DNA from: a bacterium
Lineage (GTDB): Bacteria > Joyebacterota > Joyebacteria > Joyebacterales > Joyebacteraceae
NCBI GenBank assembly: GCA_025774935.1
Contig: JALGZK010000002.1
Span: 1-64,000 of the forward strand
Direction: 5' to 3'
DNA: 64,000 bases
Shown: positions 142 to 39,334 of the stretch, one piece after another
Numbering within the stretch: the stretch's first letter is position 1
Layout: each line of letters opens with the position of its first letter
The notes under the pieces: model-generated
The model's input: the letters and a program-made list of their open reading frames with translations, nothing else
Databases searched by the model: none
Told to the model about the DNA's origin: nothing
Made by a program: the position numbers and the translations under genes

Positions 142-2735
142 TCAGCGTCGTTCGTGAACTCCTCCAGCAGTTCGACGAACTCGGGATCGTCCGGGTAGAG
201 CTCCTGCCCCACGGCCATCGCCGCGATCGCCCTCCTGAGGTCCCAGTCGTAGTTGGAGTAGGCCTCCGCCAGGATCTTGAGTTCCTCAGGTCCGTCGATG
301 GCGTTCAACGGCACGACGGCAGCCTCCATGAGCATCTCGATGTTCTGTATTCGCGTTTCCTCGAAGAGATGGAGCGGCGCCTCGTACTCGACGCGCATGT
401 TGTCGTCTGTGTTCCGAACGACGTCGCCCACCAGCGTCCTGAGCTCCTCTTCCCCGAAGAGGTAGAGAGCGACGATCTCCTCGGACTTCCGCATGCCGAG
501 GCGGGCGAGGTCCATCCCGGCGTCGGGCGAGCGCTGGACGACCTCCGCGATGCTGTCCGCCGAGAACGGAAGCGGAGCGTCGCTCCCGAGGATGACGAGA
601 TCCGCATCGTCGATCCGGAAGACGGCCACGAACCCGAACACGTCGGCGAACGACGCGAAGACCGACTTCAGGTTCGATGGGGTCATCGCGTAGGTCTGCA
701 CCCACTGCGCCCAGACTCCGCCCGGGCTCATCTTCCGCTTCCCGAGCTCGAAGAAGTCCCGCGTGAACAGGTTCGACACGCCGCTCAACCACGGGTTCGA
801 GGGCTCGGAGCTCACGAGGTCATACGTCCCGTCCGGGACGAGCATGAGGTGGTTGCGCGCGTCGTTCAGGATAACCCTGACTCGCGGGTCGTCGAGGGGG
901 CGGTTGTTGTGCTCGTCGAAATAATGGCTCGCCTCGATCACCGCCGGCTCGATCTCCGCCGCGTCGATTCGTGTCGGGGAATCGTAGAGCGCGATGGAGC
1001 CGGTAGTCATTCCGCTCGCGAATCCGATCACGAGGACGTTATCTGCGTCCGGGCGAACGACGATGGGTAGGTGTGCGAGGAGGACCTGCGTCTCGAGGTC
1101 GGCCTCCGTCGATGCGTCCACCTTCCCGTTGACGGAGAGCCAGATGTTCCCCGACCCCCGGGTGCGCGCGACCGCGACGACCGACGATAGCCCCTCGTCG
1201 TAGTGGAGGAGCTCGAACGGGGTCACCGCGGAATCGATCAGGCCCGTCCGCGAGCGGTCCTCGAGGTCGTCCACGTACTGGTACATGCCGGACGTCATGA
1301 GGAGCGGGTTCCACGGCGGACGGAAGAGAAACATCAGGATGATGAGAGCCGCGCCGCCCGCCATCTTCGCTGCGAACCGGGCATCCCGGACCCGGCCGGC
1401 CGTTGCCACGGCCGCGGCGCTCACGAGCACCGCGGCGAGGATGTTGACGGACGCGGCAGCGACGACGGTGCCGCGGATGTTGAGCGCCGGAAGGAGCACG
1501 AGCCCCGCGAGCGATGCGCCGATGAGCGCGCCAATCGTGTTCGTCCCGTAGAGCCTCCCGACAGGACTGCTCACCCGATCGGGCCGGCCCGCCGCCGCAC
1601 GGACCAGATACGGGAACGTCGCTCCCATGAGGAGCGTAGGGAGGATCATGATCGCGAGCGCCAGCCCCACCTGCGCGACCCAGAAGAGGGCCCCGGAACC
1701 GCCGACGCGGTCGAAGAGCCAGACGAACGCGAAGGGAAGCTGACCATATGCGAACATCGCGCTCCAGCACAGGATGCCCACCGCGAACTGAATCCCGGCG
1801 AGACGTCCGAGGACGAGCTTCCTCCCTCCTCGCGCGAGGTCTCTGTCGGCGAGCCTCCCGCCCACCCATCCTCCGATGCCGATCCCGAGGAGGAACGCCA
1901 GGAGCATGATCGTGAACGCGTACGCGCTGCCGCCGAGCGTGAGCGAGAGGAGCCTGAACCACGCGACCTCACAGAGGAGGCTCGCGAACCCGGCGAGCGC
2001 GGCGACGATGAGGAGGGGGCGGTAGTCCTCCCCACCCTTCGCCTTAGCTCCGGCGGGCGCGTGTGCCACCTCGGCCGCCGGGATCGGCTCGCTTGCCCGC
2101 GAGAGCGCGACGGCAAGGAGCGCCAAGACCAGGTTCACCGCGGCCGTTCCCCACGTGGTCGCGGCGAGTCCCAGTCGCGGGAGCAGCACGAATCCCGCGA
2201 GCGCCGTTCCGAGCACGGCTCCGAGAGTGTTCACTCCGTAGAGCCTCCCGACCTGGTAGCCGGTCTCCGCTCTCTCCGAGGTCACAAAGCGCGCGAGGAG
2301 CGGCAGGGTCGCGCCCATGCAGAGCGTCGGCGGCAACAGGAGCACACCGAGAAGAACGAACTGAAACGTCCCGAACGCGGCGGGCCCAGGCTCGACCGCG
2401 CGCCAGAGCCCGAGATAGAGCGGGCTCACTGCGCGCAGCAGGAACGGGAAGATGAGCGCGTAGAAGCCGATGAACGCCTCGAGGATCGCGTAGCCGAGGA
2501 GCGGTCTGGCCGTGCGTTCGGCCCAGCGCGCGGCGGCGAAGCTCCCGAGGGCGAGCCCTCCCATGAACGCCGCCAGAACGGTCGTGATGGCGAGCTGGCT
2601 CGTTCCGAAGAGAACGTGCAGCTGACGCGCCCAGAGCGTCTCGTAGACGAGAGACGCGGCGCCGCTCAGGAGGAAGAGCGGGACGAGCAGGAGCGTCGCG
2701 CGCTCGCGGCTGAGCCTGTGGGCTTCACCCGGCAT
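138..2735 (-). CDS. Fused multi-pass membrane protein with spermidine-synthase-like domain
   Basis: The 865-residue product starts at ATG 2735, preceded by a purine-rich GAGGGAAAGGGA. The open frame continues to 2945, but the upstream part lacks protein character. The first ~480 residues hold about a dozen hydrophobic segments in two similar halves (both contain a GRLYGxNTxGAxxG motif). The C-terminal ~300 residues form a class I methyltransferase-like fold related to spermidine synthase, with a nucleotide-binding VIGFASGMTTG, an acidic EIEP and a following NDARNHL. The canonical DxTDP active-site strand is replaced by SEPSNPW, so ordinary putrescine aminopropyl transfer is doubtful. This architecture is widespread and usually annotated as fused MFS/spermidine synthase; its substrate is unknown. 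It is transcribed away from the export operon to its right. Confidence 0.85.
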   Translation of the reverse strand: MPGEAHRLSRERATLLLVPLFLLSGAASLVYETLWARQLHVLFGTSQLAITTVLAAFMGGLALGSFAAARWAERTARPLLGYAILEAFIGFYALIFPFLLRAVSPLYLGLWRAVEPGPAAFGTFQFVLLGVLLLPPTLCMGATLPLLARFVTSERAETGYQVGRLYGVNTLGAVLGTALAGFVLLPRLGLAATTWGTAAVNLVLALLAVALSRASEPIPAAEVAHAPAGAKAKGGEDYRPLLIVAALAGFASLLCEVAWFRLLSLTLGGSAYAFTIMLLAFLLGIGIGGWVGGRLADRDLARGGRKLVLGRLAGIQFAVGILCWSAMFAYGQLPFAFVWLFDRVGGSGALFWVAQVGLALAIMILPTLLMGATFPYLVRAAAGRPDRVSSPVGRLYGTNTIGALIGASLAGLVLLPALNIRGTVVAAASVNILAAVLVSAAAVATAGRVRDARFAAKMAGGAALIILMFLFRPPWNPLLMTSGMYQYVDDLEDRSRTGLIDSAVTPFELLHYDEGLSSVVAVARTRGSGNIWLSVNGKVDASTEADLETQVLLAHLPIVVRPDADNVLVIGFASGMTTGSIALYDSPTRIDAAEIEPAVIEASHYFDEHNNRPLDDPRVRVILNDARNHLMLVPDGTYDLVSSEPSNPWLSGVSNLFTRDFFELGKRKMSPGGVWAQWVQTYAMTPSNLKSVFASFADVFGFVAVFRIDDADLVILGSDAPLPFSADSIAEVVQRSPDAGMDLARLGMRKSEEIVALYLFGEEELRTLVGDVVRNTDDNMRVEYEAPLHLFEETRIQNIEMLMEAAVVPLNAIDGPEELKILAEAYSNYDWDLRRAIAAMAVGQELYPDDPEFVELLEEFTNDAD

Positions 2736-2862
2736 GATTCCCTTTCCCTCGCGGAGACGTCGTGGCCTATCGTAAACCGATGACAGGCTAGCAGATTCGG
2801 ACGGCGCGTGAGAGGAAAAAACCGAGCCCGCCGGAAAGGACGGCTCCGGAGTTCCGGAAGCG

Positions 2863-2871
2863 TGGTACACT
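2863..2871 (+). promoter_or_regulatory. Possible extended -10 promoter for the export operon
   Basis: TGG (2863-2865) directly precedes TACACT (2866-2871), an extended -10 arrangement seen at several other promoters here. There is no convincing -35 at the usual distance. The start codon at 2948 lies about 70 bases downstream and has GGAGGA at about 2930-2935. Confidence 0.35.
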
Positions 2872-2947
2872 TGTTCACTCACGAAAACAGGGAGACGGCG
2901 CGCGACTCTCAGAGCGTCGAGGGACCATCCGGAGGATCGGCTCACGC

Positions 2948-4258
2948 ATGAAGAAGCTCATCGTCATCGCGATCGCAGCAGTGGCAGCGGTCCCTGTAAT
3001 CTGGTACGTCGTCGGGCGGGACGGGGAGGGGGACGCGAGTCGCTACGAGACCGTCGAGATAGAACGGGGGGACCTCGAGAACGTCATCTCGAGCACCGGA
3101 CAGCTCTCCGCCGTCGGGACCGTGGAGGTCGGGACGCAGGTCTCGGGGACCATCAGCAGGGTCCTCGTCGACTACAACGAGAGTGTCCGGAAGGGGCAGG
3201 TCCTCGCGGTCCTCGACACGACGATGTTGTCGGCGAGCGTCCGACAGGCGAGCGCCGACGTCATGCGGTCGCAGGCCCAGTACGACCAGATGGCGCGTGA
3301 CTACGATCGCGAGAAGGACCTGCGCGAAGGCAACCTCATCAGCGAGCAGGAGCTCCAGGACGCCGAGACGCTTCTCGAGACGGCACACGCCAGCGTGATC
3401 TCGGCGAACGCCTCGCTCGACCGGGCGCGCGCGAACCTGCGCTACGCCGTCATCCGCTCCCCCATCGACGGAACCGTCATCATGAGGAACGTCGAGCCCG
3501 GGCAGACCGTGGCCGCGAGCTTCTCGACGCCGACCCTCTTCGTGATCGCGGAGGACCTGGCGGAGATGGAGATCCGCGCCCAGGTTGACGAGAGCGACAT
3601 CGGCGTCATCGAGGTCGGACAGAAGGTTCGGTTCACGGTAGAAGCGCACATGGACGAGACGTTCGAGGGCATCGTTCGGCAAATCTGGCTCCAGCCGCAG
3701 ACGGTGCAGAACGTGGTCACCTACACCGTCGTCGTCGACGCGGAGAACGACAGGGGGCTTCTCTACCCCGGGATGACCGCGGTGACCGACTTCGTGGTCG
3801 ACGAGAGACACGATGTCCTGCTCGTGTCGAACGCCGCGTTCAGGTTCCAGCCCTCCGATGAGATGATGGAGGAGTTCCGTTCGCGCATGCAGAAGCGGAT
3901 GGAAGATCTCCCCGACTCGACGAAGGCGAAGATGGGGAAGCGCGGGACCGACGCGAAGGCTCCGGGTGGGCAGGGCGGAGGTCACGGGGGGCAGGGCGGA
4001 TCCGGTGGATACACTGGCGGGCCGCCCGGGATGTCGGGAGCCCACGGCGGGCAGCAGTGGGGCGGGCAGCGCCTCTGGATCCTCAAGGAGGACGGCAGCT
4101 TCGACGCGGTGCGGATCGAGGCCGGCGCTACCGACGGGCGGAAGACGGAGATCGTGCGCGGCCGCGGCATCGAAGAGGGAGCGAAGGTCATCACGAAGGT
4201 CGACGAGGAAGCCGAACGGGGAAGCACCGCGAGCAGGGCGCTCCGCCGCGGGATATAG
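2948..4258 (+). CDS. HlyD/MacA-like periplasmic adaptor of an efflux system
   Basis: This 436-residue protein has an N-terminal membrane anchor (residues 2-22). It then shows the membrane-fusion-protein order: first lipoyl half (57-90), a coiled-coil hairpin (about 95-165), second lipoyl half (166-190, with SPIDGTVIMRNVEPGQ) and a beta-barrel (205-285). It would bridge the inner-membrane ABC complex encoded next to an outer-membrane channel. The odd part is residues 300-373: a charged helix followed by a glycine-rich stretch (338-373) with GGHGGQGG-type repeats inserted in the membrane-proximal domain, which is not typical of MacA. The ATPase and permease genes follow on the same strand. The family assignment is firm; the cargo is unknown. 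Confidence 0.9.
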   Translation: MKKLIVIAIAAVAAVPVIWYVVGRDGEGDASRYETVEIERGDLENVISSTGQLSAVGTVEVGTQVSGTISRVLVDYNESVRKGQVLAVLDTTMLSASVRQASADVMRSQAQYDQMARDYDREKDLREGNLISEQELQDAETLLETAHASVISANASLDRARANLRYAVIRSPIDGTVIMRNVEPGQTVAASFSTPTLFVIAEDLAEMEIRAQVDESDIGVIEVGQKVRFTVEAHMDETFEGIVRQIWLQPQTVQNVVTYTVVVDAENDRGLLYPGMTAVTDFVVDERHDVLLVSNAAFRFQPSDEMMEEFRSRMQKRMEDLPDSTKAKMGKRGTDAKAPGGQGGGHGGQGGSGGYTGGPPGMSGAHGGQQWGGQRLWILKEDGSFDAVRIEAGATDGRKTEIVRGRGIEEGAKVITKVDEEAERGSTASRALRRGI

Positions 4259-4298
4259 GAGCGCGACCCGGACACCGGCGACGCTCGAGGGCAACACG

Positions 4299-5069
4299 AT
4301 GGCGAGTCTGATCGAGACACGTGGAGTCACGAAGGTCTACCACATGGGAGACGTCGCCGTGCAGGCATTGCGCGGCGTCGATCTCGTCGTGGAGGACGGC
4401 GAGTTCGTGGCGCTCATGGGCGCGTCCGGCTCGGGGAAGTCGACGCTCATGAACGTCCTCGGGTGTCTCGACGAGGCGACCTCCGGCGAGTACCACCTGG
4501 GCGGCGTGAACGTCCACGAGCTCACCGGTGACGAGTTCGCCGAGATCCGGAACCAGAAGATCGGGTTCGTGTTCCAGGGATTCAACCTCCTCGCGCGAAC
4601 CACCGCCCTCGACAACGTGGAGCTGCCTCTCTTCTACGACCGTTCCGCCCGGATCGAGGACCCGCGCGCCGCGGCGATCGAAGCGCTCGAGCGCGTCGGC
4701 CTTGGCGACCGCGTCGAGCACGAGCCGAGCGAACTCTCCGGAGGCGAGCAGCAGCGCGTCGCGATCGCTCGCGCGCTCGTGAACCGCCCGTCGATCATCC
4801 TCGCAGACGAGCCGACAGGGAACCTCGACAGCCACACGTCCCTCGACGTCATGTCGCTCTTCCAGGAACTTAACGCCCAAGGCATCACGATTCTGGTGGT
4901 CACCCACGAACACGATCTCGCCCGATACACGAGTCGGACGGTGACGCTCAGGGACGGTGTAGTCGTCGAGGACCGTGTGAACGAGAGCAGGCGCAACGCG
5001 GCGAAGGACGCCAAGGACGTGCCGGAGATCGGAGACCCCGCAAGCGTCGGCGGATTCCCAGGGAGCTAG
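4299..5069 (+). CDS. MacB/LolD-type ABC transporter ATP-binding protein
   Basis: This 256-residue ATPase starts at ATG 4299, chosen because homology begins with the MASLIETRGV sequence; the frame is open further upstream but overlaps the adaptor gene. It shows Walker A GASGSGKS (41-48), a Q-loop with VFQGFN (91-96), signature LSGGEQQR (146-153) and Walker B IILADEPTGNLD (166-177), all intact. The EPTGNLD form is typical of the MacB/LolD/FtsE group that works mechanically with FtsX-like permeases. It lies 40 bases after the adaptor gene and 7 bases before the permease gene, so the three form one operon for periplasmic export or lipoprotein-type extrusion. Confidence 0.93.
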   Translation: MASLIETRGVTKVYHMGDVAVQALRGVDLVVEDGEFVALMGASGSGKSTLMNVLGCLDEATSGEYHLGGVNVHELTGDEFAEIRNQKIGFVFQGFNLLARTTALDNVELPLFYDRSARIEDPRAAAIEALERVGLGDRVEHEPSELSGGEQQRVAIARALVNRPSIILADEPTGNLDSHTSLDVMSLFQELNAQGITILVVTHEHDLARYTSRTVTLRDGVVVEDRVNESRRNAAKDAKDVPEIGDPASVGGFPGS

Positions 5070-5076
5070 AGAGACG

Positions 5077-6294
5077 ATGAAGGTCCGCAACCTCGTCAGG
5101 ATCGCCTTCAAGAGCCTCACGAAGAACAGGATGAGGAGTCTCCTGACCTCACTGGGTGTGATCATCGGCGTCGGAGCCGTCATCGTGATGGTGGGAATCG
5201 GATCGGGCGCGCAGGCGGACGTCGAGGCTCAGATCCGCTCGCTCGGCGCCAACCTCATCGTCATCTTCCCGATGCACAGGAGGGTCGGCGGCGTCAGCCA
5301 GGGCGCGGGATCCAGGAACATGCTCACGCTCGCCGACGCCACGAAGCTCAAGGAGCAGGCGCTCCTCGTGACCGCGGTCTCGCCGCTCGTCCGTTCGGGT
5401 GGACAGATCATCGGTGGGGTCGGGAACTGGAACACCTCCGTCGAGGGCGTCGACCCTTCGTACATCGACATACGAAGCTGGCCGCTCGCCACGGGTGAGT
5501 TCTTCGGAGACCGGGAGGTCCGCGCAAAGAGTAAGGTCGCCGTGCTCGGACAGACGGTCCTCGAGAACCTCTTCCCCGACAGCGACCCGATCGGCGAGAC
5601 GATCCGCATCAGGAACACCCCGTTCCGCGTGATCGGCACGCTCACGGAGAAGGGACAGACCTCCTGGGGGCACGACCAGGACGACGTCATCCTCGCGCCC
5701 TCGACGACGGTCTTCTATCGGCTGGCGGGCGGGAGGTACATCAGCAGGATCTACGCGAGCGCCAGCTCTCCCGAGGAGTCGGCGGCCGCACAGGAGGAGC
5801 TGACGCTCCTCCTGAGGGAGGCCCACAGGCTCCATCCCGGCGAAGAGGACGACTTCCGGGTCCGGAACCAGGCCGAGATCATGGAGACCGCGTCCGAGAC
5901 CTCGCGCGTCATGACGCTCCTCCTCGGTTCCGTGGCGGGGGTCTCGCTCATCGTCGGCGGTATCGGCATCATGAACATCATGCTCGTCTCGGTGACCGAG
6001 CGGACGCGGGAGATCGGTATCCGCCTGGCAGTCGGGGCGCGCAGCAAGGACGTCCTCAGGCAGTTCCTCACCGAGGCCGTAGTCCTCTCGCTCGTCGGCG
6101 GCATCATCGGGATCATCCTCGCGTTCGTGGTCAGCTCCCTCCTCTCGAAGTACGCAGGCATGACCACGCTCATCGACCCGTTGGTCATCGCGATCGCCTT
6201 CGGGTTCTCCGGGGCGGTCGGCGTCTTCTTCGGCTACTACCCCGCCCGCAAGGCCGCCCGCCTGAATCCCATAGACGCGCTCCGGCACGAGTAG
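5077..6294 (+). CDS. MacB-like FtsX-family ABC permease
   Basis: This 405-residue protein begins with the N-terminal signature of MacB permeases (SLTKNRMRSLLTSLGVIIGV), continues as a first transmembrane helix (about 18-42), a large periplasmic domain (about 45-270) and three C-terminal membrane helices (about 280-305, 330-352, 365-385). The cytoplasmic loop holds TREIGIRLAVGAR, the coupling region of the family, and the protein ends in the usual PARKAARLNPIDALRHE. In E. coli ATPase and permease are one MacB chain; here they are separate genes, which is also common. A GAGAGACG element precedes the start and the ATPase stop is 7 bases upstream. A small CGGGG/CCCCG hairpin at 6311-6322 follows. 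Confidence 0.92.
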   Translation: MKVRNLVRIAFKSLTKNRMRSLLTSLGVIIGVGAVIVMVGIGSGAQADVEAQIRSLGANLIVIFPMHRRVGGVSQGAGSRNMLTLADATKLKEQALLVTAVSPLVRSGGQIIGGVGNWNTSVEGVDPSYIDIRSWPLATGEFFGDREVRAKSKVAVLGQTVLENLFPDSDPIGETIRIRNTPFRVIGTLTEKGQTSWGHDQDDVILAPSTTVFYRLAGGRYISRIYASASSPEESAAAQEELTLLLREAHRLHPGEEDDFRVRNQAEIMETASETSRVMTLLLGSVAGVSLIVGGIGIMNIMLVSVTERTREIGIRLAVGARSKDVLRQFLTEAVVLSLVGGIIGIILAFVVSSLLSKYAGMTTLIDPLVIAIAFGFSGAVGVFFGYYPARKAARLNPIDALRHE

Positions 6295-6383
6295 GCGACC
6301 GCTCAAGCATCGGGGCTCCCCGGAACCGCTCTTGATGGCATTCTGCACCCCTCCCACCGTTCCCCGCGAGAAACCCTGATTCA

Positions 6384-6412
6384 TTGACAAACCGCACTAA
6401 TAGTGGTAAGAT
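6384..6412 (+). promoter_or_regulatory. Sigma-70-type promoter upstream of the repeat-protein gene
   Basis: TTGACA at 6384-6389, a 17-base spacer and TAAGAT at 6407-6412; TGG lies immediately before the -10. The -35 box is a perfect match. Transcription should start near 6419 and run through the structured leader to the start codon at 6865. Confidence 0.7.
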
Positions 6413-6436
6413 AGGCAGTTAGAGGATCAAGCTCAC

Positions 6437-6483
6437 GGCCATCGTGCCGCGGGGGCGCATGCGAATGCTCCCGCCGGGTGGCC
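6437..6483 (+). other. Stem-loop in the long 5' leader
   Basis: An outer stem GGCCA/TGGCC (6437-6441 with 6479-6483) encloses an inner stem, GCGGGGGC 6449-6456 with GCTCCCGC 6467-6474 (one G-T pair), and a 10-base loop. It lies about 20 bases after the predicted transcription start. I could not match it to a known riboswitch or small RNA family. Confidence 0.4.
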
Positions 6484-6864
6484 GTCTTATATCCGCGTAC
6501 GGTCGACAGACCGGCGCGGCGACCGGCTCCGTCCTGAGAGCGGGCTCGGAAAGGACGCACAGTCATCGCCTACTGCTCATGCTTGTAGTCAAGAAGAGTG
6601 GAAGTCGGTCCGCAGCTTGACGTTGCGGCCAGTGCGTTCCGCTGCCGGGGACGGCAGGAGAGTCAGCTGAGATGAGGGAGCCGGTTGTGCTGAACGGCCT
6701 AGGGATTGCTCCGGGTCTGTACGGGGAGCCGCGACTTCTGCGGCTGTCGACCCGTGCGGATACGCCCGGGGCACGTTGTTTTGTGGAGACGGGTACCCAT
6801 GAGAGAGCGAGATGACACGAGAGGGCGCACGGCGCCCGTGGGACTTCGAAAGGAAGCCAACACC

Positions 6865-9800
6865 ATGAGATGGGGAACGCTGGTTTGCGCGGTGCTCCTT
6901 GCGGCGACGGCAACCGTGAGTGTGGCGGACGTCCCGCGGACGATGAGCTACCAGGGAGTACTGAAGGACTCGGGCGGGAGCGTGGTGCCCGACGGCGACT
7001 ACGATGTCACGTTCGCGATCTACGACGTCGACGTCGGAGGCACGGCCCTCTGGACGGAGACGCAGACGCTCCCCGTCGCCGGCGGGATCTTCAACGCCGT
7101 CCTCGGCAGCGTGACAACTCTCGACGTCCTCTTCGACGTGCCGTACTGGTTGGGTGTCTCGGTCGAAACGGATCCGGAGCTTGAGCCGCGCGTGGAGCTG
7201 ACGGCCGCGCCGTACGCGATGCGCGCCCTCTACGCCGACACCGGTGGTGATGACGACTGGGTCATCTCGGGGAACGACGTGTACAACATCACCGGGAGGG
7301 TGGGGATCGGAACGGCGACGCCGGAGTACGCACTCGACGTCGCAGACACGGCTCGCGTGTCGGCTCTCGTGATGCCGACGGGCGCGGTCGACGGTCACGT
7401 CCTCACCTCCGACGCCGCCGGGATCGCGTCCTGGCAGCCGGGCGGAGGGGGCGGCACGGGTGACATCACGGGCGTCGCGGCTGGCGAAGCTCTGTCCGGA
7501 GGCGGGACCGAGGGCGACGTCACGCTCGACGTCAACGCGGGCGCCGGCCTCGCGATCGCCGCGGACACGCTGCGCCTCGCCGGTCCGTACCTCGACGGAA
7601 CCGCCTACGACGGCGCCTTCGTCAACGAGGGCCAGGCCGGCTCGATCACGGCAGACATGGTCGTACCCGACGTCGTCTCGAGCCTGGACGGCGTGGCGAA
7701 CGACGCGGGCGACATCGACCTCGTCGCCGGGGAGAACGTCACGATCACCCCCGACGACGTCGGTAACACCATCACCATTGCGGCCGTCGGCAGCGGCGAT
7801 ATCACGGGCGTCGCCGCGGGCGTCGGCCTCCTGGGCGGCGGCACCGAGGGCGACGTCACTCTCGACGTCGGAGCCGGAGACGGCATCGCGGTCACCGCGG
7901 ACTCGGTTGCGGTCGTGGCGGCGGACCTCGCCGGCGACGGCCTGGTCGAGAACGCGAACGACCTTGCAGTGGGTGCGGGGGACGGTATCACTGTCGCAGC
8001 CGATGACGTCTCGGTGGTCGCAGCCGACATCGCAGGCGCCGGACTCGCCGACGACGGATTGAACGATCTCGAGATCGTCACGGGCACCGGGCTCGAGGTC
8101 GTGGCGGACACGCTCGGACTCACTGCCCCCTACGAGACCGGCGCGGCGTACGACGCCGCGTTCGTGAACGAGGGACAGGCGGACGCTGTCACGACCGACA
8201 TGATCGCCCCCGACATCCTGAGCGGCATCAGCGGCGTCACGAACGACGGAGGGCAAATCACGTTCGTCGAGGGTTCGAACATCCAGATCCTCCCGAACGA
8301 CGAGCTGAACACGATCACGTTCGCGGCCGCCGCGACGCTCTCTGGTGACATCACGGCCGTCATCGCAGAGGACGGTCTCTACGGTGGCTCCGAGTTCGCG
8401 GACGCCCACCTCTGGGTAGGCGACGGCGACGGCATCGTCGCGGACGCCGACTCCATCCACGTTCAGGTCTCCGACTTCGCGGGAGCCGGTCTCGTCGACG
8501 ACGGGTTCAACAATCTGGACGTCAACACCGGCGCCGGGCTTGCGGTGGTCTCAGACACCGTCGCTCTGACCGTCCCCTACCTGGACGGAAGCGCCTACGA
8601 CGCCGTCTTCGTGAACGAGGGACAGGCCGGCGCCGTCACCGCTGACATGGTCGTCCCCGACGTCGTCTCAAGCCTCGACGGCGTCGCGAACGACGCTGGC
8701 GACATCGACCTCGTTGCCGGAGAGAACGTCACGATCACACCAGACGATGTAGGGAACGCTATCACGATCGCCGCCACAGGCGGCGGCGACATCACGAGCG
8801 TAGACGCAGGAATCGGTCTCGGAGGCGGCGGAACGGAGGGCGACGTAACGCTCGACGTCCTGACCGGCCCCGGACTCGAGGTCGCCGCCGACACGCTCGG
8901 TCTGACCCTTCCCTATCAGGACGGTAGCGCCTACAACGCCGTCTTCGTTAACGAAGGACAGACCGACGCCGTCACGGCAGACATGGTCGTCCCGACCATC
9001 GTCGCCAGCTTGGACGGCGTCATTAACGACGCCGGCGACATCGACCTCCTCGAAGGTGAGAACATAACGATCACCCCCGATGATGAGGGCAACGCGATCA
9101 CGATCGCCGCCACGGGCGGGGGCGACATCACCGCGGTCACGGCCGGGAGCGGTCTCTCCGGAGGCGGGACGGAAGGCGACGTCACGCTGGATGTGGTCAC
9201 CGGTCCGGGGCTCGCGGTCGCGGCGGACACGCTTGGACTGACCGTTCCGTACCAGGACGGCAGCGCCTACGACGGCGTCTTCGTGAACGAAGGACAGGCG
9301 GACGCCGTGACGACCGACATGGTCGTCCCGGATATCGTGTCCAGTCTCGACGGAGTCGCGAACGACGGCGCCGGCATCGACCTCGTCGAGGGCGACAACA
9401 TCTCCATCACGCCTGACGACGTGGCCAACACGATCACGATCTCGGTCGCGGACGGTGGCGACGGGGACTGGTCGTTCGACGGAGATAACATCTACTCGAC
9501 GGTGCCCGGGAACGTCGGCATCGGCGAGCCCATTCCCGACACGAAGCTCCACGTCGCAGGCGATGCGAAGGTCACGGGGAAGGTCTACGCGAATGCGGTC
9601 TCGAGCATGAGTCCGCTCGAGCTCCAGACCGGCGACGTGACCAGGGTGTTCGTCGACGATGTCACCGGCAACGTCGGCGTGGGGACCAGCACTCCCATCG
9701 AGAAGGTGGAGGTGGACGGGGCGGTCCGGATGACGGGCCTGCAGCTCACGGCGGGCGCCGGAGACGGTCTCGTGCTGACCTCCGACGCCACTGGCGCGGG

Positions 9801-12504
9801 CACCTGGCAGGATCCGGTCGACGTGATCATCCCGCTCGACGCTTCGGCCGACGCCCCACTCACCGCTGTCATCGGGGCCACGAACACCACCCTCGAGTCA
9901 GGCTTCGCCGCGGGCGTGCAGGGCACGCACGCGGCCACCGGGACCTTCGGTTATCTCGGCGGAGAGAATATCGGTGTGATGGGCATCGGCGCAATCGGTA
10001 CCGGCGTCGAGGGGTTCGGCGCCATCGGCCTCAAGGGCACGGGCAGTACGGCCGGCGTCCAGGGCATCGGAACCGGCGCCGTCGGAATCGGTGTCTTCGG
10101 CTCCAACCCGGCTGGGTACGCCGGGTACTTCGATGGGAACGTCCTCATGACCGGGTTCGAGTTCCCGCCGGGCGCGACGGAGGGTCACGTCCTGACCGCG
10201 GGCGTCGGCGGAGTCGGCTCGTGGCAGGCGATCCCCGCCAGCCTCGCCGGAACGGGCGACGCGAACAGAATCCCCAAGTTCGTGGACAGCCAGACGCTGG
10301 GGAATTCGGGCATCCTCGAGAGCGGTGGCACCGTCAGCATCGGTCTCGTCGCAGCCAGGGGTGACGGCTCGCCACGCGTCAAGAGGGGGGACACCAGGAC
10401 GTACAGCCGACTGGCCAGGAGGCTCGTCGTCTCTCAGGACAACTCGGAGACAGGACACTTCAGCGTCATGGAGACGAACGCCCTGGAGGATGGCCGCACG
10501 GCCATCTACGCTCTGCGTGACAGGGAGTGGGACGTCCCGAACGACGGCGCAGGATACGGCGTCGGACAGACGAACAACGCGATCACTGGCTTCAACTACT
10601 GGGGCGATCTCTACACGTTCGGGGTAGCCGGATACTCCTACAACGACGAGAAGCTCACCGGCGGAGTCCTCGGGGCGGAGCACGAAGGAGACTACTGGGG
10701 CGCGCTGGGCTATCGCGACATCAACTACCAGGGCTGGGGGGTGTACAGCCCCCACAACGTGTACGTCGGCGGCAGCCTGGGCATCGGGACCGAAGATCCC
10801 CAGGCCAAGCTCGACGTCGCCGGAACGGCTCAGGTGACCGGCTTCACCATGCCCACCGGCGCGTCGACCGGTTACATCCTCACCTCCGACGCGTTCGGCA
10901 TCGCGACCTGGGAGGCGCCGAGCAGTTCGGACATCACCGCGGTCTACGCGGATGACGGTCTGACCGGAGGCGCGGAGACGGGTGACGCGCACCTCGCCGT
11001 CGGCGCGGGCGACGGAATCAGCGTCGCAGTCGACGACGTCTCGGTTGTCGCGGCGGACATCGCTGGCGCCGGGCTCGCCGACGACGGCGCCAATAACCTC
11101 GAGGTCGTGACTGGCCCGGGGCTCGCGGTCGTCGCTGACACGCTCGGACTGACCGTCCCCTATCAGGATGGCAGCGCGTACGACGCCGTCTTCGTGAACG
11201 AGGGACAGGCGGACGCGGTCGGAGCCGGCATGATCGTGCCCGACGTCGTCTCGAGCCTGGACGGTGTCGCGAACGACGCCGGCGACATCGATCTCCTCGA
11301 AGGCGCGAACATCACCATCACTCCCGACGACGTTGGCAACTCGATCACGATCGCGGCCACGGGTGGCGGCGACATCACGGCGGTCGCGGCCGGCGACGGA
11401 CTCACAGGCGGCGGCACCGATGGTGACGTGACGCTCGACGTCCAGACCGGCACCGGCATCGCGTTGGTCGCCGACGCCGTCGAGCTGGCTCTTCCCTACC
11501 AGGACGGCAGTGCCTACGACACCGTCTTCGTGAACGAAGGACAGGTCTCTTCCGTCACGAGCGGCATGATCGCGGATGGGGAGGTTGTCGACGCCGACGT
11601 CGCTGTCGGCGCGGCCATCGACCCCACCAAGATCAGCGGCACCGCGTGGACGACAGTGAACGACGGGACCGGGAGCGGTCTGGATGCGGACACCGTGGAT
11701 GGACTCGACTCCACCGATCTTGCCGCGGCGGCGCACGAGCACGATGCCGCCTACATCGACGATGAAGCCGGTGAGGTCGACACGGCCGCGGACTTCGGGT
11801 TCGTCGCTCCCACCCACGTCACGAACCTCGACGCCGACCTCCTCGACGGGCAGGAGGCCACCGACTTCGCGGCGACCGCTCACGGGCATGCCGGCATGGG
11901 AGACATCACCGCCGTGACCGCCGGGAGCGGCCTCGCTGGCGGTGGGACCGACGGCGACGTGACGCTGGACGTCTTGACCGGCACGGGCCTCGCGGTCGTG
12001 GCTGACACGATTGGCCTCACGACCGCCTACGAGGACGGAAGCGCGTACGACGCCCGCTTCGTCAACGAGGGGCAGGCGGACGCCGTCACGGTGGCCATGA
12101 TTTCCACCGACGTCGTCTCGAGCCTCGATGGGGTCGCCAACGACGGCGGCGACATCGATCTCGTTGCGGGATCGAACGTGACGATCACCCCGGACGACAC
12201 CGGCAACACGATCACGATCGCGGCGAGCGACCCGGCGGACGGCGATTGGACCGTCTCGGGGAGCGACGTGTACTCGGCGGTCGCGGGCAACGTCGGCATC
12301 GGCACGTCGTCGCCGGCGCGGAAGCTCCACATCAGCGACGTCATGAGGCTCGAACCACGGGCCGACTTCCCGACGAGCCCGAGCGACGGCGACATCTGTG
12401 TCCAGGGCGAGTCGGGCAGCAGACACATCTACTGCTATCTGAATGGCGCCTGGGTGCAGCTCGACCCGGCTGCCGCGGCCCGCAGAAACGACGTCACGGA
12501 GTAG
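6865..12504 (+). CDS. Giant modular repeat surface protein (tail-fibre/adhesin-like)
   Basis: This 1,879-residue protein starts at ATG 6865 with AAAGGAAG about 9 bases upstream and a clear signal peptide (MRWGTLVCAVLLAATATVSV-A). Residues ~22-130 form the PRTMSYQG...LTAAPYAMRAL domain common at the N terminus of secreted proteins in environmental bacteria. Eight repeats starting with (G/S)DIT follow in two blocks, separated by a region with GIGT.P..LDV tail-fibre motifs and G-V-x-G repeats. One repeat carries LDADTVDGLDS/AHEHDAAY and DLLDGQEATDF/AHGH elements like those of phage tail fibres. The protein is very acidic and nearly Cys-free, and has neither the FlgD-like C-terminal tag of its neighbours nor an S74 chaperone domain. 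A fibrous cell-surface or secreted adhesin is the likeliest role (inference). Confidence 0.85.
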   Translation: MRWGTLVCAVLLAATATVSVADVPRTMSYQGVLKDSGGSVVPDGDYDVTFAIYDVDVGGTALWTETQTLPVAGGIFNAVLGSVTTLDVLFDVPYWLGVSVETDPELEPRVELTAAPYAMRALYADTGGDDDWVISGNDVYNITGRVGIGTATPEYALDVADTARVSALVMPTGAVDGHVLTSDAAGIASWQPGGGGGTGDITGVAAGEALSGGGTEGDVTLDVNAGAGLAIAADTLRLAGPYLDGTAYDGAFVNEGQAGSITADMVVPDVVSSLDGVANDAGDIDLVAGENVTITPDDVGNTITIAAVGSGDITGVAAGVGLLGGGTEGDVTLDVGAGDGIAVTADSVAVVAADLAGDGLVENANDLAVGAGDGITVAADDVSVVAADIAGAGLADDGLNDLEIVTGTGLEVVADTLGLTAPYETGAAYDAAFVNEGQADAVTTDMIAPDILSGISGVTNDGGQITFVEGSNIQILPNDELNTITFAAAATLSGDITAVIAEDGLYGGSEFADAHLWVGDGDGIVADADSIHVQVSDFAGAGLVDDGFNNLDVNTGAGLAVVSDTVALTVPYLDGSAYDAVFVNEGQAGAVTADMVVPDVVSSLDGVANDAGDIDLVAGENVTITPDDVGNAITIAATGGGDITSVDAGIGLGGGGTEGDVTLDVLTGPGLEVAADTLGLTLPYQDGSAYNAVFVNEGQTDAVTADMVVPTIVASLDGVINDAGDIDLLEGENITITPDDEGNAITIAATGGGDITAVTAGSGLSGGGTEGDVTLDVVTGPGLAVAADTLGLTVPYQDGSAYDGVFVNEGQADAVTTDMVVPDIVSSLDGVANDGAGIDLVEGDNISITPDDVANTITISVADGGDGDWSFDGDNIYSTVPGNVGIGEPIPDTKLHVAGDAKVTGKVYANAVSSMSPLELQTGDVTRVFVDDVTGNVGVGTSTPIEKVEVDGAVRMTGLQLTAGAGDGLVLTSDATGAGTWQDPVDVIIPLDASADAPLTAVIGATNTTLESGFAAGVQGTHAATGTFGYLGGENIGVMGIGAIGTGVEGFGAIGLKGTGSTAGVQGIGTGAVGIGVFGSNPAGYAGYFDGNVLMTGFEFPPGATEGHVLTAGVGGVGSWQAIPASLAGTGDANRIPKFVDSQTLGNSGILESGGTVSIGLVAARGDGSPRVKRGDTRTYSRLARRLVVSQDNSETGHFSVMETNALEDGRTAIYALRDREWDVPNDGAGYGVGQTNNAITGFNYWGDLYTFGVAGYSYNDEKLTGGVLGAEHEGDYWGALGYRDINYQGWGVYSPHNVYVGGSLGIGTEDPQAKLDVAGTAQVTGFTMPTGASTGYILTSDAFGIATWEAPSSSDITAVYADDGLTGGAETGDAHLAVGAGDGISVAVDDVSVVAADIAGAGLADDGANNLEVVTGPGLAVVADTLGLTVPYQDGSAYDAVFVNEGQADAVGAGMIVPDVVSSLDGVANDAGDIDLLEGANITITPDDVGNSITIAATGGGDITAVAAGDGLTGGGTDGDVTLDVQTGTGIALVADAVELALPYQDGSAYDTVFVNEGQVSSVTSGMIADGEVVDADVAVGAAIDPTKISGTAWTTVNDGTGSGLDADTVDGLDSTDLAAAAHEHDAAYIDDEAGEVDTAADFGFVAPTHVTNLDADLLDGQEATDFAATAHGHAGMGDITAVTAGSGLAGGGTDGDVTLDVLTGTGLAVVADTIGLTTAYEDGSAYDARFVNEGQADAVTVAMISTDVVSSLDGVANDGGDIDLVAGSNVTITPDDTGNTITIAASDPADGDWTVSGSDVYSAVAGNVGIGTSSPARKLHISDVMRLEPRADFPTSPSDGDICVQGESGSRHIYCYLNGAWVQLDPAAAARRNDVTE
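7459..9456 (+). repeat. First block of five in-frame repeats (112-residue unit)
   Basis: Repeats begin at 7459, 7795, 8344, 8785 and 9121. Units 1, 4 and 5 are 112 residues. Unit 3 is 147 and unit 2 is 183, the extra length being one or two copies of a ~35-residue GAGDGI...AGAGLADDG...NNLE module. Each unit runs GDIT-AGxGLxGGGTEGDVTLDV-ADTLGLT-PYxDGSAYDAVFVNEGQ-DMVVPDVVSSLDGV-NDAGDIDL-GENVTITPDD-NTITIAA. The DNA is also highly similar between units, so recombination could change copy number. Confidence 0.9.
10927..12228 (+). repeat. Second block of three in-frame repeats
   Basis: Units begin at 10927 (147 residues, with one ~35-residue insert), 11368 (extended by tail-fibre-like DADTVDGLDS and HEHD/HGH elements) and 11899 (about 110 residues). 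They match the units at 7459-9456 in order and sequence. Confidence 0.9.
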
Positions 12505-12609: not shown

Positions 12610-14724
12610 CTACTGGGCGTACTGGAGCTCGTAGAGGCGGTAGTAGTAGCCCTTCTTCGCCAGGAGCTCCTGGTGCGAGCCGACCTCCCGGACCTTCCCC
12701 TTGTGCATGACGAGGATCTTGTCCGCGTGCTGAATCGTCGAGAGACGGTGGGCGATGACGATCGAGGTCCTCCCCTCCATCAGCCTCACGAGGGCGTCCT
12801 GAATGAGCCGTTCAGTCTCGGTGTCGATGTTTGACGTCGCCTCGTCGAGGATGAGGATCTTCGGATCGAACGCGAGCGCGCGGGCGAACGCCAGGAGTTG
12901 ACGCTGACCCGTCGACAGAGTCACGCCCCTCTCGCGAACCTCCTCATCGTATCCGGCGGGGAGACGCTCGATGAACCGGTCCGCATTCACGTGCTTCGCC
13001 ACCGCGCGGAGCTCCTCGTCGGTGATCGCGTCGTTCCCGAGTTTGATGTTCCCCTTGATGTCCCCCGCGAACACGAACACGTCCTGCATGACCAGGCCCA
13101 GGTGCGAGCGGAGGAACTTCTTCGGGAGCTTGCGGATGTCGACCCCGTCGAGCGTGATTCGACCCTTCTGGATGTCGTAGAACCGCTCGAGCAGGCTGAT
13201 GATCGAGGTCTTCCCCGCGCCCGTCGCTCCAACGATCGCCACCGTCTCACCCGGCTCGACCTCGAACGAGACGTCCCGAAGCACGTACTCGTTCCCGTCA
13301 TACGAGAAACTCACGTTCTCGAACCCGATGTGTCCCGCCACCTCGACGGGAACCTGCGGCTCCGTGGGCTCGGGGATAATCTCCTCGTTGTCGAGGAGAA
13401 GGAAGATTCGCTCCGACGACGCCATCGCCTGCTGCATCGTGCTGTACTGCTCCGCGAGGTTTCTGATGGGGCGGAAGAACATCTGAACGTACGAGAGGAA
13501 CGCCACCAGCGTCCCCAGCGACAGCGTGTTCTGTATGACCTTGCCGCCGCCGTACCAGATCACGAGCCCGATCGCCACTGAGCTCGCGAGCTCCATGAGC
13601 GGCATGAAGACGGCGAACACCTTGATCTGCCGCATCGCCGCCAGGAAATTGTCGTGGTTGATCTTCGCGAAGCGGCGGTAGCTCTCTAGCTCGCGCGCGA
13701 AGATCTGCGTCACCCTCATCCCTCCGATGTTCTCCTGGAGCGACGCGTTGATCCGCGCCACCCGGACCCGCACCTCCCGGAACGCGTCACGGATCCTCAC
13801 GCTGAAGATCGCCGTCGCCCACGCCATGAACGGAAGCACCGCGAAGCACACGAGCGCCAGCCGCCAGTTGAGGCGCAGGAGCAGAATGATGACACCGATC
13901 AGGATGAACACGTCCCTCAGGAGCATGATCACGATCGACGTGAACATCTCGTGCAGGACCTCGACGTCGTTCGTCGCCCTCGTCACTAGACGTCCCACGG
14001 GGTTCTTGTCAAAGAACGAAAGCGAGAGGCGCTGCAGGTGACCGAGGACCTTCATCCTGATGTCGTACATCACCCGCTGCGACGTCAGTTCCATCATGTT
14101 GATCTGGAAGAGGGAGAACGCGAACGTCAGGACGAGGATGGTCACGATGAGGAGCGCTACGCGCGCGAGCCCACGGAAGTCGGCTTCGCGAATCATCCAG
14201 ATCTGCTCGCTCGAGATCTCGGCGAACCTCTCCACGGGAATACCGACCGTCGACCCGGCGGAGAGGAACCCGGTCGCGTCGACTCCGGACCGCTCGACGG
14301 ACTCTCGATCCGCGAGGTAGTAGTTCGCCTCGCCGATGACGCCCGCGTCCGTAGCGCGCGCCACGACCCGGGGATCGTAGCCAGAGAGGTGCTTCGAACG
14401 CACGAGGAACGCGTCCCCGGGGAGGCCCTCGACCGGCAGGAGATCGTCGGAGTGTTCCTCGATGAACGCCCTCGCAAGGGCTCCAGCGTCCGTCCCGGTG
14501 CCGGCGTCTACCTGGACGAGCCGCGCCGTTGCGACGATGTAATCGTCGATCGCGAGCTTCGTGATGTACGGGATGGCCAGCTCGAAGCCGGCGACGAAGA
14601 TCAGGATGATCACGGCCACGACGACGTACCTCACGTACGGTCTCACGTACTTGAGGAGCCTCTTGACGAGTCGTGCGTCGTACGGCTTGCCCAGCACTTC
14701 CTCGTCGTGGTGGTCGTGAGCCAT
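12610..14724 (-). CDS. ABC exporter subunit with intact catalytic Glu and a luminal insertion
   Basis: This 704-residue protein has a transmembrane domain plus nucleotide-binding domain. Walker A is GATGAGKT (499-506), the signature LSTGQ (603-607, noncanonical third residue) and Walker B ILILDEA (623-629) with the catalytic Glu. Between the first (33-52) and second (185-206) membrane helices there is an extra ~120-residue hydrophilic region, much longer than the usual external loop. The partner upstream has LSGGQ but Asp instead of the catalytic Glu. This complementary degeneracy is the TM287/TM288-type heterodimer pattern, with this protein in the TM288 role. The two genes are 4 bases apart. 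Substrate is unknown; lipid or drug export is typical of the family. Confidence 0.92.
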   Translation of the reverse strand: MAHDHHDEEVLGKPYDARLVKRLLKYVRPYVRYVVVAVIILIFVAGFELAIPYITKLAIDDYIVATARLVQVDAGTGTDAGALARAFIEEHSDDLLPVEGLPGDAFLVRSKHLSGYDPRVVARATDAGVIGEANYYLADRESVERSGVDATGFLSAGSTVGIPVERFAEISSEQIWMIREADFRGLARVALLIVTILVLTFAFSLFQINMMELTSQRVMYDIRMKVLGHLQRLSLSFFDKNPVGRLVTRATNDVEVLHEMFTSIVIMLLRDVFILIGVIILLLRLNWRLALVCFAVLPFMAWATAIFSVRIRDAFREVRVRVARINASLQENIGGMRVTQIFARELESYRRFAKINHDNFLAAMRQIKVFAVFMPLMELASSVAIGLVIWYGGGKVIQNTLSLGTLVAFLSYVQMFFRPIRNLAEQYSTMQQAMASSERIFLLLDNEEIIPEPTEPQVPVEVAGHIGFENVSFSYDGNEYVLRDVSFEVEPGETVAIVGATGAGKTSIISLLERFYDIQKGRITLDGVDIRKLPKKFLRSHLGLVMQDVFVFAGDIKGNIKLGNDAITDEELRAVAKHVNADRFIERLPAGYDEEVRERGVTLSTGQRQLLAFARALAFDPKILILDEATSNIDTETERLIQDALVRLMEGRTSIVIAHRLSTIQHADKILVMHKGKVREVGSHQELLAKKGYYYRLYELQYAQ

Positions 14725-17435: not shown

Positions 17436-19415
17436 CTAGCGCAGAACCACGACCTTCCGGCTCGTGCTCTCGCTCCCAACCTCCATCCTGACGAGATAGA
17501 CGCCCGACGCGACGGGATCGCCACTCTCGGAGAGGCCGTCCCAGGTGACCGTCCCCTCTCCTCCGGAAGCCCCTGACGCGAGGCGCCGGACGAGCCTGCC
17601 GGTTGCGTCGTAGACCGCGAACGTCGCGTCGGCTCCCGCGGGAGCCACGAACTCCATCCTCGAGGAGACAGCGAACGGGTTCGGGCGCGGCGGAGCGAGC
17701 CAGAGCGCTGATTTCCGGAGATCCGCCAGAATCTCCACGGGGCCTGCGAAGGTCTCCTCCCCGTCGGACGCGACCGCCCCCACCATGTATGCGTACATCG
17801 CGCCGTCGACGACGCTCGTGTCGACAAACTCGCTGACGCTCAGAAGCTCCCCGTTGAGCCGGACGAAGCCGCCCCTCGTGCCGATGCCGGCCCGCGCCGC
17901 GAGGATCTCGGGAATCGTCGCGGAGCCGTGGTCGCCTACGCGACCGCCGGGCGTCGCGTCTTCCCCGCCCACTGCCATCCGGTAGACATGGTAGCCCGTG
18001 ACGTCCGGCGTTTCGTTGAGGTCCCACGCGACCACGACAGCGTTGCCGTCGACGCGGCACGTCACGTTCTCGACCGGCGGGACGGACGTGCCGTCGCCGT
18101 CGGCATCGAGGCAGAACACCTTCCCCCCGCCGCTCGAGTACTGCGTCCCGACGAGCGCCTCTGCGATGCCGTCCCCGTTGACGTCGTTGATTCCCCGCAC
18201 CGAGTAGACGCGGTTCCCGACCGTGTACGTCCAGAGGACCTCGCCGTCCCGACCGCTCACGCAGTAGGCTTTGAGATCGAACGACCCCGCGATCACGTCG
18301 TCGTACCCGTCGTAGTCGACGTCCTTCATCGCGTCGATCGTCCAGACGTCTCCCCCGTTCGTCGTGCCCGTCGGAACGCTCCAGTGCTCGACGCCGGTCT
18401 TCCCGCTCACGCAGACGATGGTGTTGCCCCATGAGCCGATGAGAACCTCCGGCGTGCCGTCGTCGTCGAGATCGTCGGTCGTTACGACACGCATGACGTT
18501 GTCGTACTGGTTCGGCATGTCGTACTGCCAGATCCACGAGCCGTTCGCCCCGCTCACGCAGACGACACCGGCCGGCGTGTTGGAGGGGTATCCGGAGGAG
18601 TACCAGCGTCCGAGGAGCGCGTCGTCGATGTCGTCGTCGTTCACGTCATCGATCGAGCAGATCGAGAAGACGCTCGACTCCGCGTCGTACGACCAGATGT
18701 GGCCCGCTACCCCGACGCTCCCACCGTCAACGCAGTAGGCGTAGTCGGAGTCGTCCCCGGTCCCCACGAGGACGTCGGCCTTCCCGTTGCCGTTCACGTC
18801 CTCGATCGGGGCGACACTGTAGACCGCGTCGGGCGCCTGGAATTTCCAGATGAGGGTCCCGGTCACGCCGTCGACGCAGTACGCCCGGTTGTTGTCGCTC
18901 CCGCAGCCGAAGATGATGTCCGGGAAGCCGTTCTCGTTCACATCGGGAATCCAATCGATGCTGTAGACCCAGCCCGACGGTGGGTCGTGCGTGTAGGTGT
19001 CGAAGGCCCAGTGAATCGTCGGCTCGTCGCCGATCGCGTACGCGGTCCGCCCGCCCCAGGACGTACCCAGAAGCGCCTCCTGCAGACCGTCGCCGTCCAG
19101 GTCGGGCGCGCTGTTGACGCAGAAGTCGCCGTAGCCGCACCCATTGCTGACGCCGCCGGGCGGAGAGACCTCCCATATCACGCCGCCGTCGGCGCCGCTC
19201 CGGCACTTGAAGTGACCGGACGGGTCGTTGGTGTAGTCGATCTCGACGAGGACGTCGGGGAAGGTGTCGCCGTCCACGTCCTCGATGGTGCCGATGCACC
19301 TGACGTGGTGGCCGGACGAGGGAGTCTGCCAGACGACGGAGACAGGCTCCGCAGCCGTCGGAATCGCGACTGCCAGCACGAGCGCCGTAACGAGGGGAAT
19401 GCCGAGGGGTCTCAT
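17436..19415 (-). CDS. Secreted FG-GAP/PQQ-like beta-propeller protein with FlgD-like C-terminal tag
   Basis: This 659-residue protein starts at ATG 19415, placed 8 bases after GGAGG (the GTG two codons earlier is too close). A signal peptide is followed by eight calcium-loop motifs of the DVDGDTFPD/DLDGDGLQE/DVNGNGKAD type at regular spacing, forming a beta-propeller (about 25-430). A fibronectin-like region comes next (about 435-570), then a FlgD-like Ig domain (about 575-659) with YDATGRLVRRLASG, WDGLSESGDPVASGVYLVRM and final RKVVVLR. That C-terminal domain resembles T9SS-type sorting domains. An extracellular binding or scaffold role is inferred. Its own promoter lies at 19526-19554. Confidence 0.85.
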   Translation of the reverse strand: MRPLGIPLVTALVLAVAIPTAAEPVSVVWQTPSSGHHVRCIGTIEDVDGDTFPDVLVEIDYTNDPSGHFKCRSGADGGVIWEVSPPGGVSNGCGYGDFCVNSAPDLDGDGLQEALLGTSWGGRTAYAIGDEPTIHWAFDTYTHDPPSGWVYSIDWIPDVNENGFPDIIFGCGSDNNRAYCVDGVTGTLIWKFQAPDAVYSVAPIEDVNGNGKADVLVGTGDDSDYAYCVDGGSVGVAGHIWSYDAESSVFSICSIDDVNDDDIDDALLGRWYSSGYPSNTPAGVVCVSGANGSWIWQYDMPNQYDNVMRVVTTDDLDDDGTPEVLIGSWGNTIVCVSGKTGVEHWSVPTGTTNGGDVWTIDAMKDVDYDGYDDVIAGSFDLKAYCVSGRDGEVLWTYTVGNRVYSVRGINDVNGDGIAEALVGTQYSSGGGKVFCLDADGDGTSVPPVENVTCRVDGNAVVVAWDLNETPDVTGYHVYRMAVGGEDATPGGRVGDHGSATIPEILAARAGIGTRGGFVRLNGELLSVSEFVDTSVVDGAMYAYMVGAVASDGEETFAGPVEILADLRKSALWLAPPRPNPFAVSSRMEFVAPAGADATFAVYDATGRLVRRLASGASGGEGTVTWDGLSESGDPVASGVYLVRMEVGSESTSRKVVVLR

Positions 19416-19790
19416 AGTCACTTCCTCCGCCGAGGGGATTCGCGTGATGGGGAGTCGCGGCGCGAACGCACGCTCCTCTCCATTGCCCGGATGGTCGCTT
19501 CAGGTAACATCCGAAGAGCACTGCGAGTATACCATTGAACTCGGGGGTTATCAAGAACGCGGGCCGGACGGCCCCGGCATCCAGTCGCAGCTCCCAACGA
19601 GAGACGGGGAGACAGGGGCAAACAGCGCTCCCCTACTCCCCGTCTGCAACGCGCGGAGCCTTTCTCCCGCCTGGCTCCGGGACCTCTCGCGAGGTCACGA
19701 CGCGTCAGCCGCAGCGCCGACTCCGAGCGACTCAAGATGCCGACGCGTACTCAGGCACGAGTACAACGCCGCGCCCCGACCTGTCAAGTG
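19416..19790. other. 375-base non-coding region between two minus-strand genes
   Basis: Holds the promoter of the beta-propeller gene (19526-19554), a GGGCC/GGCCC mini-hairpin near 19561-19574 and a GTACTC/GAGTAC hairpin at 19747-19764 that may end transcription of the upstream gene. No coding frame is convincing. Confidence 0.5.
19526..19554 (-). promoter_or_regulatory. Promoter of the beta-propeller gene
   Basis: On the minus strand: TTGATA (19549-19554), a 17-base spacer, TATACT (19526-19531), with TGG right before the -10. Five of six matches in both boxes. The predicted leader is about 100 bases. Confidence 0.75.
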
Positions 19791-39216: not shown

Positions 39217-39334
39217 CTCTCCTCCTCCGCTGTCTGCTTCGTTCCCGACTTCCTCTCTTTGTATTCTCTCTACGCCTCTCGGCGTTCTCTTCATTCAGTC
39301 TCTTCTCAGCATCAGGCCGCCGCGGCCCCGAAAC
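39217..39334 (-). other. Purine-rich intergenic leader between two M14 genes
   Basis: Read on the minus strand, 39217-39305 is dominated by A and G (for example GAGAAGAGACTGAATGAAGAG) and contains an ACGCC/GGCGT hairpin. A GGCCGC-C-GCGGCC quasi-palindrome (39315-39327) lies just after the upstream stop. No clear promoter is seen, so the second gene is probably read from the first. Confidence 0.5.

Follow-up and report, generated by a model that had tools for sequence, protein, structure and literature searches.

The closest described system to the giant repeat protein examined here is the mosaic adhesive trimer (MAT) superfamily of the predator Bdellovibrio bacteriovorus (Caulton et al. 2024, PMC10769870), whose fibres serve in sensing prey. 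That account describes a consensus for the capping loops of the MAT fibres, notes that the loop is common also to S74 phage fibres and myelin regulatory factor, and reports a solved fragment of Bd2133 in which about 370 residues span 142 Å. The protein resembles the MAT fibres in its conserved N-terminal domain (a weak but specific profile match), its capping-loop β-helix segments and its signal-peptide-like start, and also in being one of several paralogues per genome with a common N-terminus and mostly different C-termini. In contrast to the MAT fibres, it comes from a different, uncultured phylum, is longer than the MAT proteins whose length is stated in that source (PMC10769870), carries no S74 domain that could be found, and has a shaft of 112-residue units with insertable pairs of sub-repeats for which there is no database match.

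Two other families of fibres deserve comparison. With the S74 phage fibres and endosialidases, such as the T5 L-shaped fibre and K1F, the protein shares the capping-loop β-helix, and tail-fibre-like genes of viruses contain pieces of its shaft unit; unlike them, it is encoded at a cellular locus, has a signal-peptide-like start of its own, and gave no Pfam or NCBIfam match to the S74 peptidase/chaperone C-terminal domain. With the YadA-type trimeric autotransporter adhesins, whose known members are trimers, it has in common the plan of an adhesive fibre that is long and modular; however, neither a YadA anchor nor any other Pfam domain was found above cut-off, and its C-terminus is a short capping-loop tip.

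The gene occupies positions 6865 to 12504 on the plus strand of the 64,000-nucleotide stretch of DNA that was analysed as a whole (the window). The frame is open from an ATG at 6865 to the stop at 12504 and encodes a protein of 1879 aa with a pI of 4.05. A mechanical ORF call starts upstream at a TTG (6706); however, the ATG at 6865 opens a signal-peptide-like sequence, MRWGTLVCAVLLAATATVSVA, and is preceded by a AAAGGAAG stretch, and it is taken here as the probable start of the fibre. Read by eye, residues 1–21 (6865–6927) consist of MR, a hydrophobic run, and SVA before DVP. The N-terminal domain follows (residues 22–126; 6928–7242), and then a neck (residues 127–198; 7243–7458) that presents the capping-loop motif VGIGTATPEYAL. 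Beyond a first stretch of shaft units lies a 490-residue collar (9457–10926) with three capping-loop motifs at residues 884, 937 and 1305. A second stretch of shaft units leads to a tip (residues 1790–1879; 12232–12501) with the capping loop VGIGTSSPARKL. The initial annotation had described an acidic, modular, fibre-like protein without the C-terminal tag of its neighbours, and each part of this description stands. Neither Pfam nor NCBIfam identified a T9SS type-A sorting or FlgD_ig domain in the fibre, while four of its neighbours carry tails of the FlgD_ig / T9SS type-A-like kind.

The four tailed proteins are all encoded on the minus strand (17436–19421, 32873–36358, 36589–39294 and 39335–41968) and are of secreted type: an FG-GAP/propeller protein, a papain-like peptidase with a β-helix, and two M14 carboxypeptidases. 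When the tails were compared with the TIGR04183 cut-off, two passed and two narrowly missed.

Contrary to the initial annotation, which could not name a family for the protein, the N-terminal domain, neck, collar and tip all match the MAT fibres of Bdellovibrio. When the N-terminal domain was compared to 18,950 NCBIfam models, the sole match was NF053851 (Bdello_MAT_N), and so it was for each of the 14 homologues (this protein and 13 others); none of 14 control genomes matched this model. The best E-value among the homologues was 7e-8, and in one relative (contig C12 of G003) both halves of the model were matched in order. The scores were below the curated cut-off of 60 in all genomes; the present protein reached 28.7 bits (E = 9.6e-7), about half of the cut-off. 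In a search of the whole fibre against Pfam and NCBIfam, nothing rose above cut-off and this sub-threshold match was the sole lead. Matches to KOW2_Spt5, Adhesin_Dr and TRP47 were weak and of low complexity and were set aside.

A second line of evidence is structural. A profile built from the neck, collar and tip of this protein and its relatives was searched against 177,635 PDB sequences, and the top four matches were all MAT fibres: 8ond (Bd2133; E = 1.1e-19), 8ojn (E = 8.5e-9), and 8oml and 8ol4 (both about 1.5e-4). The next match was myelin regulatory factor. The tip profile alone also placed 8ond first (E = 3.8e-7) and matched 8ojn and 8oml. The capping-loop motif, of the VGxGTxxPxxxL type (V-G-x-G/N-...-P-x-x-x-L in the MAT superfamily), occurs five times in the protein, compared to a mean of 0.02 and a maximum of two in 5000 shuffled sequences; such VGIGT-type segments mark a type of fold as much as a family. 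The full protein, an alignment of unit pairs and an alignment of the N-terminal domain gave no match in the PDB, and a model of the N-terminal domain gave no PDB match with Foldseek at E ≤ 0.001.

The matches thus point to homology of the N-terminal domain and of the collar and tip elements with those of the MAT fibres. As the best explanation of these data, the protein is probably a secreted fibre that works in a MAT-like manner and is a distant relative of the Bdellovibrio MAT proteins. Since the score of its N-terminal domain lies below the curated cut-off, it is best filed as a MAT-like protein rather than as a certified member. The initial annotation had named a full-length match to a characterised family as grounds against its reading; the match found covers the ends and the collar, but leaves the shaft unit unmatched.

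The genomic distribution of the N-terminal domain also follows the MAT example. Relatives of the domain are present in all 20 genomes of the phylum that were examined, at 1–27 copies each, and the present genome has 11. Among five full-length paralogues, the N-terminal domains are 45–64% identical, while the C-termini are only 17–36% identical in nine of ten pairs; in the remaining pair, the tip is 63% identical. A shared N-terminus joined to mostly different C-termini is the MAT pattern. Two further large fibres lie in tandem at locus L021 (contig C38 of G000, positions 2400–10200) as frames of 1185 and 1141 aa; they have the same N-terminal domain and unrelated C-termini, and one of them contains several GWGDHGLAGYLTSYTETDPV repeats. 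A large number of contigs break off within a fibre gene or close to one (C33, C32 and C10 of G000; C86, C72, C121 and C32 of G001; C465, C471, C223 and C260 of G008), so that the draft genomes probably have more fibres and more units than were counted.

The shaft contains eight units, each of which begins with (G/S)DIT, at residues 199, 311, 494, 641, 753, 1355, 1502 and 1679. Their lengths are 112, 183, 147, 112, 112, 147, approximately 177 and 112 residues, respectively, and the spacings of 112, 183, 147, 112 and 147 between starts are exact. Units 1 (7459–7794), 2 (7795–8343), 3 (8344–8784), 4 (8785–9120) and 5 (9121–9456) precede the collar, which contains no repeats. Units 6 (10927–11367), 7 (11368–11898) and 8 (11899–12234) connect the collar to the tip. 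Unit 7 is a truncated unit joined to a different module, HEHD...DADLLDG (11734–11877). Independent of this reading, Tandem Repeats Finder identified a 336-bp period at 8518–9462 with 79% matches. The initial annotation had given the eight repeats and the lengths of units 1–6, and was right almost to the residue.

It had also ascribed the extra length of the longer units to one or two modules of about 35 residues, which is correct for units 2, 3 and 6. Unit 2 contains two modules of 34 (7870–7971) and 35 residues (7972–8076), while unit 3 (8419–8523) and unit 6 (11002–11106) contain one of 35 residues each. The point of insertion is constant, between positions 25 and 26 of the unit. Each module is composed of two sub-repeats of approximately 16–19 residues with a G-x-G-φ turn (φ, hydrophobic). 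Such turns are found at intervals of some 15–19 residues in the first part of the unit, in the modules and as far as the segment VTGxGLxVxADTLxL; therefore, the optional module is made of two sub-repeats like those that flank it. This overturns the view that the module is distinct from the rest of the unit, as the sub-repeats are of the same kind as the part that is always present. The two-level modularity proposed earlier is upheld and in fact extends to three levels: unit, module and sub-repeat.

Searches of Pfam, NCBIfam and the PDB gave no match for the 112-residue unit. Its distribution is patchy: of the phylum's 20 genomes, 5 contain it, as do 4 of 173 others. In one of the outsiders (L093), the N-terminal domain and the 112-residue unit are again combined, with a different tip.

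The recurring turns raise the question of how the shaft is folded. In one reading, which is compatible with the MAT-like explanation and concerns the shaft fold alone, the shaft is a triple β-spiral of the adenovirus type, the sub-repeats of about 17 residues are the spiral repeats, and each module adds two of them. The published spiral is a regular 15-residue repeat with hydrophobic residues at positions c, e, g, k and m and G/P at j (PMC3150272). The shaft resembles those of the adenovirus fibre and reovirus sigma1 in the hydrophobic pattern of its sub-repeats, with a glycine at the turn as in the 15-residue consensus, and in being extended by repeat number. The core pattern φ-x-φ-x4-[G/P]-φ-x-φ, based on positions c, e, j, k and m, occurs 13 times in the protein, 11 of them in the shaft, compared to a mean of 2.8 and a maximum of nine in 2000 shuffled sequences; however, most of these are homologous copies, not independent occurrences, and two fall in the N-terminal domain. 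The spacing of the sub-repeats is uneven, alternating between about 15–16 and 19 residues where the spiral has a constant 15, and consensus position g is seldom hydrophobic. With no sequence homology to the spiral fibres found, including in the PDB, the likeness is one of pattern only. AlphaFold monomer models calculated with 10 and 2 sequences were of low confidence (pLDDT = 46.7 and 43.6) and so show no fold. A search of the 35-residue module against the PDB returned a single match (E = 1.2) that was judged to be chance. A triple β-spiral is a possible fold for the shaft, and a doubtful one.

The fibre locus has been retained within the genus. Two further species of this genus likewise have the gene between MacA-MacB-MacB and two MsbA-like transporters; the orthologue of G002 is intact (also present as record JALGVN010000009.1), and that of G001 is split over two contigs. 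In a second genus (G008), two fibre ends on two contigs adjoin the same MFS and MsbA genes, and from these flanks they may be assigned to an orthologue. The set is composed of one complete orthologue and two broken at contig ends, all from draft metagenome assemblies. A scan of contigs was made with the full protein, the N-terminal domain alignment being too diverse to serve as a query, and identified the G002 record, two weak matches to the collar in Bacteroidota and nothing else.

Some of the flanking genes have features of their own. A MacA-like adaptor (2948–4258, plus strand) has a glycine-rich stretch at about residues 324–372 in its C-terminal part. The MsbA-like transporter at 12610–14724 (minus strand) is 704 aa in length; a match to the 572-position model TIGR02203 spans residues 21–703, but the membrane domain match begins only at residue 183, which suggests that approximately 120 residues are inserted near the N-terminus. 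MacAB was considered as a dedicated exporter of the fibre, and this is doubted, since in the other genus the gene immediately before the fibre start is that of the MFS protein, without MacAB.

A phage origin was weighed against this setting. Half-units, together with A-part and sub-repeat stretches, occur in the viral contigs L080, L083 and L084 within genes that match tail-fibre or structural profiles, and this, with the capping loops known from S74 phage fibres (PMC10769870), might suggest a phage or prophage tail fibre, perhaps recently captured, that works in a virion. Against this, the locus sits among ordinary cellular genes (a spermidine-synthase-like MFS, MacAB and MsbA), this arrangement is kept across the genus and in part in another genus, the protein has its own signal-peptide-like start, and relatives of its N-terminal domain are present in all 20 genomes of the phylum that were examined. 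Searches by tblastn of plasmids and of 50,697 phage records gave no match (in the latter, a low-complexity filter may hide some), and no informative PHROG was matched. A role as a virion tail fibre is largely refuted by synteny and must be regarded as very improbable. In genes of the viral contigs L080, L083, L084, L086 and L087, the half-unit SSxDGVxNDGGxIDLVAGxNITITPDDxANTITI or just the stretch VAGxNITITPDD from it occurs, and the GDITGVTAGSGLTGGG part is present separately; several of these genes have tail-fibre or structural profiles. The shaft thus has the appearance of a mobile building block, with pieces common to phage and bacterial fibres.

Returning to the MAT-like fibre, a comparison of the orthologues separates constant from variable parts. 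For the one species pair that could be aligned over the collar, the window protein and that of G002, all 490 positions were aligned with no change in length and 87% identity. The first 78 residues of the tip likewise align at 78 of 78 positions with 90% identity. Across three other species, one from another genus, the tip is 86–90% identical and the N-terminal domain 62–80%. In contrast, the shaft before the collar is 666 residues in the window and 516 in G002, while the shaft after it is 435 and 480 residues, respectively. Unit 1 has 112 residues in the window, 108 in G002 and 147 in G001, and unit 2 has 183, 149 and 149. Units 4 and 5 of the window correspond to one unit in G002, so that this stretch has one 112-residue unit fewer. 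After the collar, G002 has a unit 6 in the corresponding place whose core is 96% identical, three copies of the HEHD module that is single in the window, and a unit 8 without its first part. The changes in length go by module. A conserved unit order with variable copy number, which the initial annotation had named as support for recombination-driven variation, is what is found among close relatives.

The DNA of the units within the window gene is 64–77% identical (49–64% at third positions) and the longest exact repeat is 32 bp. The repeats are old, which also makes a collapse of the window assembly unlikely; the relatives, with exact repeats of 109, 68 and 66 bp, are less safe in this respect. 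In a tree of unit cores, the units of genus-mates pair by position, while three units of the G008 protein cluster together (99/95), which indicates a duplication or homogenisation specific to that lineage. The single module in unit 2 of G002 is a chimera: its first part is nearer to window module 2a and its second part nearer to module 2b (the informative sites divide 15:4 and then 1:11; Fisher 1.7e-4; none of 2000 permutations). Such a module is as expected if in-register recombination had added or removed one module. In window unit 2, the first 25 codons are also closer to those of units without a module than to those of the positional orthologue. For units 4 and 5, a test for one clean crossover in G002 did not reveal any, as the informative sites are interspersed.

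These observations bear on whether the fibre might be a phase-variable surface protein, its length shifting rapidly as members of one population come to differ in repeat number. The differences in copy number among species, the long exact repeats of the relatives, the clustering of units within one protein of another genus, and the fact that the orthologue assemblies break inside repeats would all fit such a protein. However, the window gene has neither long exact repeats nor closely similar units, and the order and identity of the units are kept between two genus-mates. Phase variation is therefore considered quite unlikely. Recombination-driven variation in length, as proposed in the initial annotation, is supported at the scale of species by the one chimera, but the window DNA is too diverged for rapid switching now; the variation is seen between species and not as a current process. 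Strongly diverged unit DNA with a fixed copy number had been named as the pattern that would speak against recombination. The DNA is indeed diverged; the copy number is not fixed.

Taken as a MAT-like protein, the fibre may be pictured as follows. Three chains would wind together, with the conserved N-terminal domain holding the fibre to the cell that produces it. The neck, collar and tip would form trimeric β-helix segments, each closed by VGxGTxxPxxxL capping loops, and between them the 112-residue units would form a rod in which runs of sub-repeats of about 17 residues are lengthened when pairs are inserted as 35-residue modules. Over species time, recombination among the units and among the modules would alter the length of the rod and leave the ends and the collar constant. 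We infer trimerisation of the shaft, display at the cell surface, adhesion and the existence of a ligand. By extrapolation from the Bd2133 fragment (PMC10769870), the fibre could have a length of the order of 70 nm. Since the rod varies in length and the ends and collar are constant, a likely role would be to keep the adhesive collar and tip away from the cell by a distance that can be adjusted. A bolder proposal, which at present seems unlikely, is that this small phylum uses its MAT-like fibres to recognise other cells and deal with them in a predatory, epibiotic or aggregate-forming manner, and that the shaft is a new trimeric fold serving as a ruler; recombination of its sub-repeat pairs would tune the length, and the collar and tip would remain fixed.

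Solved structures of such fibres have so far come from a single predatory bacterium; this study extends MAT-like fibres to a different phylum, where they were found in every genome examined. The shaft unit is new to the public family libraries that were used, and its logic is one of constant ends and collar with a variable spacer. With a rod that varies in length and a tip that apparently does not, the orthologue series may serve to probe how fibre length relates to attachment.
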